37,992 nucleotides of DNA from Limnohabitans sp. (GTDB taxonomy: Bacteria; Pseudomonadota; Gammaproteobacteria; Burkholderiales; Burkholderiaceae_C). Below the pieces are notes generated by a model that was not told the origin of the DNA, did not search any database, and saw only the letters and a program-made list of their open reading frames with translations. Numbering within the stretch: the first letter of the stretch is position 1; each line of letters begins with the position of its first letter. The stretch covers positions 1 through 37,992 of the forward strand of contig SHXN01000002.1 in NCBI GenBank assembly GCA_009693305.1, read 5' to 3'. Both the position numbers and the translations under genes were made by a program. This document shows, in pieces, positions 2,768-29,984 of this stretch.

Positions 2768-3432
2768 TTAGATAAGCTCAACAGCACTACGCTTCATGTC
2801 ATCATTTGCATCTATGTATGACTGCGTAGTGCTGATGTTTCTATGTCCAGCCAAACTCATCAACACACGGACTGAAATTCCTTTTGCGGCTAAGTTTGTG
2901 ATAAATGTTCTACGAGGCGAGTGGCTACTGGCACCATCAATACCAGCCCTCTTAAAAAGGTAATGAAAATGCTGTGTCAACGTGTTTGCAGTAAATCCAT
3001 CACTAGTTATTTTTTGGCTGTAAATTAGTTTGTCATTGGGTTTAACGTTACTCAATTTACGAACGTAAATATCTAATTCTTTTTCAGTCTTTCACTAACA
3101 AAAACAGTACGTGCATGTCCGCCTTTTGTTTGGCTGGGTTTTAACTGGATTTCTTTTTTAACATTTCCATCCCGCCCTACTACATCGGCTATTCGCAAAC
3201 TAGCGGCCTCACCCACACGCAAGCCAGCGTAATTCATGAGAAGTAGGCATGCTCTGTTACGAGCGGCATGTTTGCGTGTTGCCACGTAATCCAGCACCCT
3301 GCGTAGTTCTGTAGCTGTTAGTGTTTTAGCTTGTTTGGACACTGCAATCTCCTTCAAAGTAATGTTTGCTGTGTCAACAGTATGTTTTCTTTTGTTGGAA
3401 ATTCCTACCGAAATTGATTCTTTTCTAGTCAC
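2768..3432 (-). pseudogene. tyrosine recombinase/integrase, frameshifted
   Basis: N-terminal ORF 3073-3432 (NYAGLRVGEAASLRIADV, Arg I region) and C-terminal ORF 2768-3055 (SHSPRRTFITNLA...LAGHRNISTTQSYI) are in different frames; joining at CTG AAA AAG gives ...LKKELDIYVRKLSNVKPN.... Confidence 0.7.
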
Positions 3433-3865: not shown

Positions 3866-4988
3866 AGGGGGTGTACTGAATTTTGTGTAAACGGTCTAAT
3901 GGCGGGTAACCGTCGAATTTCCAGGAGTGGATATGACCGTCAATTCAAAGAAAGCAGTACCCAAAGATCTCATCGACATTTTGCTGGCTGATTACAAAAA
4001 GCCAGAAGATTTGATTGGTGAGAATGGGCTTTTAAAGCAGTTACTTGTCGAGCGTGCCCTAGATGCCGAGATGTCCGAGCACCTTGGGCATGATAAGAAC
4101 GCACCTGTCACCAACCCCGATGGCAACGCTCGCAATGGCAAAAGCAAGAAGACGCTCAAGGGTGAGTTTGGTGAGTTGCCCACCGAGGTTCCAAGGGACC
4201 AGCAAGGCAGCTTTGTGCCGCAATTGGTCCCCAAACACCAGACGCGTTGGGCGGGCTTTGACGACAAGATTTTGTCACTCTATGCACGCGGCATGACGGT
4301 GCGAGAGATCCAGGGCCACCTGGAAGAAATGTATGGCACAGAGGTCTCGCCCACATTGATCTCGTCTGTCACAGACGCCGTTGTGGAGGAAGTTAAAGCT
4401 TGGCAGTCCCGCCCCCTTGATGCCGTGTACCCCATTGTTTATCTGGACTGCATTCACGTCAAAGTACGTGACTCTGGCGTGGTTAAAGCCAAGGCGGTGT
4501 ACCTTGCCATTGGCATCGACATGACCGGCAACAAAGAAGTGCTGGGCTTGTGGATTGCACAAAACGAGGGAGCCAAATTCTGGCTGCAAGTGGTCACAGA
4601 ACTGAAGAATCGTGGCGTGCAAGACATCCTGATTGCCTGCGTGGACGGCTTAAAGGGCTTTCCTGAAGCGATAGAGACGGTGTACCCGTTGGCTAAGGTG
4701 CAACTTTGCATCGTGCACATGGTGCGCCACAGTTTGAACTATGTGTCGTGGAAGACGCGCAAGGAAGTGGCCGCGGCTCTCAAATCGATCTACGCCTGCG
4801 CCACGGTGGAGCAAGCGTCACAAGCCTTGGATGAGTTTGAATCGGTGTGGGGCAAAGACTACCCACCCATCGTACAAAGCTGGCGGCGTAACTGGCAACG
4901 CATCATTCCGTTCTTTGACTATCCACCTGAGATTCGCAAGGTGATTTATACGACCAATGCCATCGAGTCTGTGAACATGAGCCTGCGC
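3866..4988 (+). mobile_element. IS256-family insertion sequence, 3'-truncated
   Basis: Putative left end near GGGGGTGTACTGAATTTTGTGTAAACGG, transposase ORF from 3927; sequence ends at the 120-bp element with no right end seen. Confidence 0.7.
3927..4988 (+). pseudogene. IS256-family (mutator-type) transposase, C-terminally truncated
   Basis: MSEHLGHDKN..., YLDCIHVKVR, CVDGLKGFPEAIETVYP, YTTNAIESVNMSLR are typical of IS256-family transposases; the C-terminus after MSLR is lost and replaced by element-encoded residues. Confidence 0.9.
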
Positions 4989-5108
4989 GGTTCTGTCGCA
5001 ATAAGGAATTTTGAAGAATCTTACCTACTACCAGTAGCGTATTTTTCCTATGCCAAACACTACCTATAGCGTTCCTGAAAAACTGGGAATCCTTATTGCG
5101 ACAGAACC
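4989..5108 (-). mobile_element. 120-bp MITE-like element, copy 1
   Basis: Perfect 19-bp TIRs GGTTCTGTCGCAATAAGGA; reverse complement identical to the copies at 28693 and 29347. Flanks GCCTGCGC and GTTTAATG do not match. Confidence 0.9.
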
Positions 5109-5488
5109 GTTTAATGGCGGGTGAAAAAATTGATATCCATTTGGAGCCTGAAGAAGCCTTTGGCGATTACAACGAAATGTTGGTGTTTTTAGAACCCAAA
5201 AATCTTTTCCCGCCCGAATTGGAAGAAGACATGACGATTGAAGGTCACGCACTTCCTGCGCAATGCAACCCCGATGCACCTCATGACGTTATTTATACCG
5301 TTACAGAAATTTATCCAGAACACGTGGTGTTAGACGGCAATCATCCATTGGCTGGCATTGCCTTGCGTCTGCATCTCACCGTCGTGAGTGTTCGCGAAGC
5401 ATCATCAGAGGAAATTGAAAAGGGAACGGTGGGCGTTGGATTTTTTAATGTGCAACCCGAAGCACTAGGAAGTCCGCACTTGCACTGA
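5109..5488 (+). pseudogene. SlyD-like FKBP-type peptidyl-prolyl isomerase, 5'-truncated
   Basis: MAGEKIDIHLEPEEAFGDYNEMLVFLEP...IAGIALRLHLTV-type content (GNHPLAGIALRLHLTVVSV) matches the C-terminal part of SlyD-type FKBPs; the N-terminal FKBP portion is missing at the element. Confidence 0.8.
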
Positions 5489-16659: not shown

Positions 16660-17715
16660 TTAAACAACAACGGGTTCTGGTTCAAGAAGAATACCGAAAC
16701 GCTCATAAACACTGGTTTGAATCGCTTTAGCAAGGGTCATCACTTCACCACCCGTGCATGGTTCTTTGATGCCGCCTTTGTTAATCAAGACCAAGGCTTG
16801 CCTGTCATACACCGCCGCATTGCCAACTGATTTTCCCCTCCAACCACAGGCTTCAATTAACCAAGCGGCGGCTAATTTGTAGGAGCCATCGACCATGACG
16901 TAATGAACCAACTTGGGTTCACGCGCAATGATGTCGGCGCATTGATCGGGGGTTACGGTTGGATTTTTAAAAAAACTACCCGCGTTGCCAACTTGGGTAG
17001 GGTCGGGAAGTTTGTTGCGTCGAATTGAGCAGACCCAATCAAATATTTGTTGAGCACCTGGATTTTTTATTTTTGTTTCATTCACTTTTTTTTGTAGATC
17101 GGTATAGCTGATTTCTGGACGCCATTGCTTGGATAAGCGAAATCTCACGCGGGTAATCAACACTCGTCCTGCGAGGCCCAAATTTTTTGAAGAAGGTCCA
17201 GGCGCGTGTTTAAAAACAGAGTCACGGTAACCAAAACCACATTGCGCCGCTTCGAGCGTCATGGATTGCCCTGTTTGCAAGTCAATCGCGTCCAAAGAAT
17301 CAAATCGATCTTGCAATTCAACGCCATAAGCACCGATGTTTTGAACGGGACAGGCGCCGACACAACCGGGAATCATGGCCAAGTTTTCAAGGCCTGTGTA
17401 GCCTTGTGAAAGCGTCCATTGGACAAAATCATGCCAATTTCCACCTGCACTCGCTTCAATCAACCAGGATTTTCTGTCCTCATCGACCAACCGTTTGCCC
17501 ATCAACTCAACCTTTAGCACCAATTGTTTGACATCGGCGGTTAAAACAATATTGCTACCTCCGCCCAAAATAAATTTGGGAAGATCCCGCAAGGCGGGCT
17601 GATCAAGCAATTGTTCGAGATCGGTGGTTTGGCGGATGCGCACCAACTGCAAGGCCTTGGCGGAAATACCAAAGGTGTTATGGGGTTGGAGGGGTACATT
17701 GGTTTCGACATTCAT
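16660..17715 (-). CDS. murB: UDP-N-acetylmuramate dehydrogenase
   Basis: [44 protein letters not shown]. Confidence 0.97.
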
Positions 17716-28287: not shown

Positions 28288-28684
28288 GGCTACAGTCTAG
28301 CGAAAAATCAATGACCTGTTTTGAAATGCAGTTAAGTTTTGCGTTGTGTCAAAGACATGGCCTTTGCAACACCCCTCAAAATATGCACCTCTTTGAGGGT
28401 GAGTTGGGCGCGATTGGCCAATTGATTGAGTCTGGGCATGAGTTTTTTGGGCGACTCAGGGTCTAAAAATCCGATATCCATTAAGGACTGCTCCCAATGC
28501 GACAAGAGTCCTCCAATTTGTTGCGCATCTGCAAACGTTTCGGTGGGTGTGGCTGACTGGACTTCAAAACCACCCAAGGCCATGCGCCACTCATAAGCAA
28601 TCAATTGCACTGCGGCGGCCAAGTTGAGCGAGCCATATTTGGGGTTGGTGGGAATGCTCAGTGCAACATGACACCAATACACGT

Positions 28685-28692
28685 CTTCGTTG
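28685..28692. repeat. target site duplication, left copy (CTTCGTTG)
   Basis: Identical to 29467-29474, immediately outside the composite unit. Confidence 0.9.
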
Positions 28693-28812
28693 GGTTCTGT
28701 CGCAATAAGGATTCCCAGTTTTTCAGGAACGCTATAGGTAGTGTTTGGCATAGGAAAAATACGCTACTGGTAGTAGGTAAGATTCTTCAAAATTCCTTAT
28801 TGCGACAGAACC
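28693..28812 (+). mobile_element. 120-bp MITE-like element, copy 2
   Basis: 19-bp TIRs; read as identical to copy 3 (29347-29466) and to the reverse complement of copy 1. Confidence 0.92.
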
Positions 28813-28827
28813 TTAATATTTGCTACC

Positions 28828-28854
28828 AAATAAACGGACAAAGTCCGTTTATTT
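28828..28854. terminator. perfect 12-bp inverted repeat with 3-nt loop downstream of the integrase fragment
   Basis: AAATAAACGGAC-AAA-GTCCGTTTATTT. Confidence 0.5.
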
Positions 28855-28879
28855 CTTAAGTTTGCTCATAATCTAATCC

Positions 28880-29346
28880 TTAGCTCGCCGTTGGTAAAAA
28901 ACCAGCACTCTGTGGCGGGGAAAGTGTTGGTGAGAAAAGGTGTCCTACTGCACGTGTGACAGCATTGGATGCATCAAGCAGCGCGTCTTGTGACAAATGG
29001 CTGTAGCGTTGTGTAGTTTTAATTTGTGTGTGCCCAAGCAGGAGCTGAACCTCGTATAAGGTGCGACCAGAGTTGACAAGGAACGATGCAAAGGTGTGAC
29101 GCAAATCATGTATGCGTACATCAGAGAGCCCCGCCGCTTTGCGTGCCGTGTGCCATGAGTGATAAATCGACTGATACGGCTTTAATGTCTTTGGGTTGGG
29201 AAACGCCCAATCACAGTTGTAGCGGGGCATTGATTCCAACAGAGTAATCACACCATCAGACAGGGGAACATGCCGAGGCTTGCCAAGCTTGACTGTGAGA
29301 ATAGGCGCTACACCAGTAAACTGCTTCTCGATCAGGCGCGCAAAAC
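28880..29346 (-). pseudogene. tyrosine recombinase C-terminal fragment (passenger between MITE copies)
   Basis: KPRHVPLSDGVITLLE..., VRIHDLRHTFASFLVNSG, LLGHTQIKTTQRYSHL; the N-terminal domain and first catalytic Arg region are absent. Confidence 0.88.
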
Positions 29347-29466
29347 GGTTCTGTCGCAATAAGGATTCCCAGTTTTTCAGGAACGCTATAGGTAGTGTTT
29401 GGCATAGGAAAAATACGCTACTGGTAGTAGGTAAGATTCTTCAAAATTCCTTATTGCGACAGAACC
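29347..29466 (+). mobile_element. 120-bp MITE-like element, copy 3
   Basis: Identical by reading to copy 2, direct orientation. Confidence 0.92.
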
Positions 29467-29474
29467 CTTCGTTG
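29467..29474. repeat. target site duplication, right copy (CTTCGTTG)
   Basis: Matches 28685-28692. Confidence 0.9.
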
Positions 29475-29984
29475 CGCATGCCAAAACGCTCAGAACCAAA
29501 CAAAAACGCAATACCTTCAATGGACTGCGTTTGTTGTGTCAATATTTCAAAATGTGCGCGTGGGGCCCGTGTGGGAGGACCAAAATCGCGCGGTGTCATC
29601 GCCGTTGCACATAGATGTGTAACGCCGTCTAGGGCTTCGTCCAAGGTTTCCACAATACGCGCGTTTTCAAGCACATCCAGCGCACCGCTTGATCGTTGAA
29701 TGGTTTCTTCGCGCCTTAAAACATTGAGCCAACGAGGAACCACCAACACCAAATCGTCAAAGCCCATGACTTTCATGGCGCGTGCGGTTGCACCGACATT
29801 TCCTGCGTAGCTGGTTTCAATTAAAACGAATCGGGTCTTCATGGGTCTAAAATCAGGGTTTTCTGCGTGCGCATCTTCGATCGCATTGTTTGGCTCTTCT
29901 TGCTGGAATGGCACTGCATCTTGATGCGGGGCCCCTGGCGCACAATTTATGACATCCTCTGCATCCTCATCTTCCATTCATCCC

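Follow-up and report, generated by a model that had tools for sequence, protein, structure and literature searches.

How did a fragment of an integrase gene come to lie between two copies of a 120-bp MITE in the middle of trmJ in a Limnohabitans MAG? Within the window, by which we mean the whole stretch of 37,992 nucleotides analysed here, the two MITE copies are 100% identical, stand in direct orientation with 534 bp between them, and are bordered on the outside by the same 8-bp sequence, CTTCGTTG, and on the inside by two unlike ones, TTAATATT and CGCAAAAC [Table 1]; the layout described in the initial annotation is thus confirmed in all its parts. Its naming of trmJ as the target also holds. 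Joining both flanks with a single CTTCGTTG yields one open TrmJ frame, and the relative G034, whose TrmJ is 92% identical, carries the empty site in a 394-bp gapless alignment with one CTTCGTTG only. TrmJ matches are found in 77 of the 85 genomes of the genus, mostly at full length. Because relatives with the empty site carry a single CTTCGTTG, the 8 bp were duplicated in this genome and the duplication is not native to trmJ. The initial annotation would have counted a CTTCGTTG present on both sides in homologues, or an uninterrupted trmJ in MITE-free relatives, against its reading: the relatives have one CTTCGTTG each, and the uninterrupted gene, which is indeed seen, is the empty site expected of a recent insertion. 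A minus-strand frame (28332-28751) begins with an ATG and 20 codons of MITE sequence (MPNTTYSVPEKLGILIATEP), leaves the MITE at its left end and continues in frame into the 3' part of trmJ. From this frame, a fusion start for the 3' part at the MITE-supplied ATG is possible; a sequence search found no sigma-70-like promoter in the MITE or the passenger.

Table 1. Features of the window around the trmJ composite unit and the third MITE copy
Feature	Position	Strand	Remark
Two adjoining open frames, presumably a broken tyrosine recombinase	2768..3432	-	named by eye
Transposase remnant, presumably IS256/Mutator-like	3927..4988	+	named by eye; 3' end cut by the MITE at 4989
Third identical MITE copy	4989..5108	- (inverted relative to the trmJ pair)	rearrangement breakpoint
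GTTTAATG (= CATTAAAC)	5109..5116		duplication in common with the right flank of MITE C61:8907-9026, beside the 5' part of an fkpB/slpA-type gene
3' part of trmJ	28332..28684	-	homologue comparison
Left 8-bp target duplication CTTCGTTG in trmJ	28685..28692		single in relatives
Left MITE copy, 120 bp, IS6-type	28693..28812	+	repeat comparison
TTAATATT, inner flank of left MITE copy	28813..28820		partner is the left flank of MITE C121:698-817; contiguous in G115
Passenger, 534 bp	28813..29346		one occurrence in the genome
Inverted repeat, 12-bp stem, immediately downstream of the integrase fragment	28828..28854
ORF, C-terminal tyrosine recombinase/integrase fragment; TTG start inside the right MITE copy	28880..29359	-
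CGCAAAAC, inner flank of right MITE copy	29339..29346		without partner in the assembly
Right MITE copy, 120 bp	29347..29466	+	repeat comparison
Right copy of the trmJ target duplication CTTCGTTG	29467..29474
5' part of trmJ	29475..29977	-	homologue comparison

The MITE terminates in perfect 19-bp inverted repeats (GGTTCTGTCGCAATAAGGA). A search for the 120-bp element in this genome and in relatives, as proposed at the outset, recovered 32 copies of 95-100% identity here (the MAG is 2.14 Mb in 181 contigs and 82% complete, about 40 of the contigs being covered at most partly or through search matches) and, among 100 other genomes, copies in G055 only, a member of the same genus (93-94% identity). 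The element is also present as a single copy in a further MAG, L078, and the named records that carry it are Limnohabitans MAGs from Lake Baikal. The 32 copies, together with a single-strand fold of z = -6.8, place the MITE beyond chance. In a second composite, at G000:C105:29165-29696, two direct MITE copies enclose a 292-bp piece of an IS6 transposase gene; the outer flanks of this unit differ from each other and find their matches beside the copies on C25 and C129. On C146, the sequence to the right of the MITE recurs, from 8 bp outward, in C112 (C112:633) without a MITE, as a repeat or an alternative junction.

The assignment of the MITE to the IS6/IS26 group, made earlier on its ends and 8-bp duplications, is upheld by both. 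IS6 left ends from the same genome (GGTTCTGTCGCAGTAAGCA) equal the MITE end at 17 of 19 bases, the first 12 being common, the right ends of these elements start GGCTCTGTCGCATTAG or similarly, and matches to IS6-family transposases are many (profiles PF13610 and NF033587). With 8-bp duplications, ends like those of IS6 insertion sequences, transposase matches in the genome and duplications split between copies, the MITE qualifies by testable sequence criteria as a putative non-autonomous member of the IS6/IS26 family, probably mobilised in trans by an IS6 transposase. The initial annotation proposed to look for an autonomous element with the same ends but had not foreseen that IS6 relatives are present in this genome. 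Those seen in the assembly have truncations, frameshifts or stops, with no undamaged complete gene among them; we assume an active transposase, perhaps hidden in assembly gaps. An IS6 element of 812 bp, whose open frame spans 233 aa and whose ends start with GGTTCTGTCGCA, is present in G034, a genome free of the MITE. At C137:5609-5757 and C22:15952-16105, the MITE adjoins 29-35 bp left over from an IS6 left end, a layout such as would be produced by a MITE that hit an IS6 element close to its end or made a deletion into it. The IS6 element at G000:C14:16865-17556 has an extra outer end, right-end-like at 17467 and left-end-like at 17556, inverted. Two pairings among full-length IS6 ends were not used, one being low-complexity (TTTTTTTA) and the other joining two right ends.

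When both flanks of each MITE copy were compared, none of the 32 was found to have an 8-bp duplication of its own, which a simple (resolved or cut-and-paste) insertion would have left at each. An all-versus-all comparison revealed eight exact 8-bp matches between a left and a right flank, the outer trmJ pair included, all of them between different copies; random genomic flanks gave 0.03 such matches on average, and the wrong-orientation control, pairing left with left and right with right flanks, gave none. These matches provide a partner for 16 of the 64 MITE ends, the other 48 being without one. Copies with a common duplication differ at 1.1 positions on average, where the mean over all pairs is 3.0 (permutation p 0.001), as expected of sister copies. 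Own duplications are likewise absent from the seven copies in G055 and the one in L078, and no other short repeat family was found with which to control internally for intact duplications. The flank sequences thus suggest that replicative (copy-in) transposition without resolution left the shared duplications as its footprint.

Joining flanks at their common 8-mer restores plausible ancestral DNA; of seven joins tested, five are contiguous in relatives. In the MITE-free G034, four of six joins are contiguous at 83-91% identity (trmJ, the fkpB-type gene, C61/C75 and C105/C25), the two sides of a fifth, C129/C105, keep their order on a single contig with about 1 kb between them, and the sixth, C55/C65, has no match. 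The fkpB-type join concerns the third MITE copy of the window, which lies between an IS256-like transposase remnant and the 3' part of an fkpB/slpA-type gene: joining the 8-mer at 5109 to C61 restores what we take by eye to be an FkpB/SlpA-type isomerase, split between the window and C61 and full length in most relatives. In the C61/C75 join, rpsO presumably follows the end of an aminotransferase gene, and the C105/C25 join holds what looks to us like the start of a D-amino-acid dehydrogenase-like gene. Since such joins are contiguous in relatives, this genome has been rearranged at MITE copies, with the 8-bp target duplicated at each such breakpoint. A 4-bp extra similarity between the copies at 4989 and 29347 is due to chance, their 8-mers being different.

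The passenger encodes the integrase fragment noted in the initial annotation, a C-terminal portion of a tyrosine recombinase (Pfam PF00589, E 5.9e-19). It has no second copy in the genome, and a plasmid search returned only a distant integrase (67%). Its edge at 28813, TTAATATT, matches the 8 bp to the left of MITE C121:698-817, and G115 is contiguous over the C121/passenger join, at 89% across 597 bp of which 58 bp are on the passenger side; these two observations, both read directly from the sequences, identify C121 as the passenger's locus of origin. The frame that continues across this join, with the passenger end upstream, is one that we take to be ParB-like. Given that CGCAAAAC, the right inner flank, has no partner in the assembly, we infer the original state of the donor.

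We propose, with a probability of roughly two in three, that the trmJ unit was formed by a deletion in cis that released a circle and by copy-in of this circle, with transposase supplied in trans. The non-autonomous IS6/IS26-type MITE would spread by copy-in (replicative) transposition without resolution, related IS6 elements providing the transposase, and every event would place the MITE at both new junctions, each beside one copy of the 8-bp target. A MITE at both junctions and a split target would result in duplications common to different copies and in newly joined chromosome segments. In the case of trmJ, the MITE would at the start have resided in or beside the integrase gene of an integrative element, near the ParB-like gene, with CGCAAAAC on its left and CGAGTCCC on its right. 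It would then have attacked TTAATATT in cis, 534 bp leftward, so that the chromosome retained TTAATATT-MITE-CGAGTCCC, the very arrangement found at C121:698, and a 654-bp circle of MITE and passenger (MITE-TTAATATT...CGCAAAAC) was released, a miniature of the IS26 'translocatable unit'. In the last step, copy-in by the circle's MITE would have taken CTTCGTTG in trmJ as its target and produced the arrangement CTTCGTTG-MITE-passenger-MITE-CTTCGTTG. Every flank is explained by this model, in which we infer the circle itself, the trans-acting transposase and, at the last step, copy-in and not recombination. The initial annotation had offered two vehicles: a MITE-passenger circle is the most likely one, whereas transposition of a ready-made composite is disfavoured by the pairwise duplications and by the C121 source locus, neither of which that annotation had foreseen. 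In the part of the IS6 review that deals with intramolecular replicative transposition, events in cis remove flanking repeats and excise the DNA that separates the element from its target, as a circle that includes a single copy of the element; the circle could, as a model, then form a cointegrate (PMC7986276).

The second option of the initial annotation, recombination of a MITE-passenger circle with a resident MITE in trmJ, would give the same structure: a single MITE would first have entered trmJ with its own duplication, and the circle would later have recombined with it, either through RecA or by IS26-type targeted conservative integration, a reaction that the IS6 review, in the portion relevant here, records for IS26 (PMC7986276). 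This route requires a resident MITE that has its own duplication; such copies number 0/32 here, 0/7 in G055 and 0/1 in L078, and we consider the route unlikely. Still less probable in our view are independent insertions, each with its own duplication, whose flanks were scrambled by later homologous recombination between the 120-bp copies. Reciprocal exchange would likewise pair the left and right flanks of different copies, such that flanks alone cannot discriminate, but an exchange would be demanded for every copy, and the significant likeness of duplication-sharing copies counts against it. Inversions, moreover, would retain both ends of a pair, and the 48 unpartnered ends are better accounted for by adjacent deletions made by the transposase.

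Metagenome misassembly at a short repeat is a concern in a MAG of 181 contigs in which 12 of the 32 MITE copies lie 330 bp or less from a contig end. None of the contigs examined ends inside a MITE, however, and the overlaps between several contig ends measure exactly 149 bp, suggestive of k = 149, a value used with MEGAHIT by a freshwater metagenome group (PMC9878933). With this k, the 120-bp repeat would be spanned by k-mers, making misjoining unlikely; misjoining would also have given most ends a partner, and only 16/64 have one. We therefore regard misassembly as a very improbable source of the junctions. We note that MITE copies near contig ends are often found beside remnants of longer repeated elements.

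The cis-deletion and copy-in reading has close parallels in IS6/IS26 copy-in transposition, translocatable units and pseudo-compound transposons which, as far as the relevant parts of two sources describe them (PMC7986276, PMC4894685), share with the present case 8-bp duplications, GGTTCTGT-type ends, direct repeats around a passenger, the intramolecular loss of own duplications and a circle intermediate, here a proposed one. Unlike in those systems, the bounding element is 120 bp long and has no transposase gene, the passenger is not a resistance gene, and the Limnohabitans MITE, in a freshwater bacterium, has its effects on the scale of the chromosome. ISfinder, according to a section of PMC6807381, holds two IS6-family MITEs, MITEBth2 and MITEHarch3, whose lengths are given as 227 and 336 bp in a section of PMC7986276. 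Both have IS6-type ends and no transposase gene, as does the 120-bp MITE described here, and the portions of these two sources that cover them report no composites or rearrangements (PMC6807381, PMC7986276). In the Tn3-derived TIME-COMPs, a MITE pair also flanks a passenger and is thought to be moved replicatively by transposase in trans, but their ends are of the Tn3 family, their duplications are of 5 bp, and some have res sites (PMC13367494). With its 8-bp duplications and IS6-like ends, in place of 5- or 6-bp duplications and Tn3-type ends, the present unit does not belong to the TIME-COMPs. The Acinetobacter johnsonii blaPER-1 structure, as outlined in part of its report (PMC3934969), similarly has a MITE pair around a passenger, the MITEs being of another length (439 bp) and the passenger a different one. 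No publication on an element of this kind in Limnohabitans came up in a limited literature search.

The IS6 field has yet to settle how IS26 circles, the 'translocatable units', originate, and a section of the 2021 IS6 review lists among the formal models a deletion in cis that starts from a lone element (PMC7986276). Here, a natural donor scar, the excised segment and the new insertion match base for base, in an element without a transposase gene, and such a minimal substrate makes the circle model directly testable. If the model is true, the formation of circles and the capture of neighbouring DNA require just two ends and a transposase in trans. We are inclined, by a narrow balance, to view this 120-bp element, which has little beyond its IS6 ends, as a main driver of chromosome rearrangement in the lineage, forming IS26-like circles by cis deletion and then copying in elsewhere. 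Tiny elements of this kind, overlooked by usual annotation, may thus be able to reorder a chromosome and carry adjacent DNA with them.
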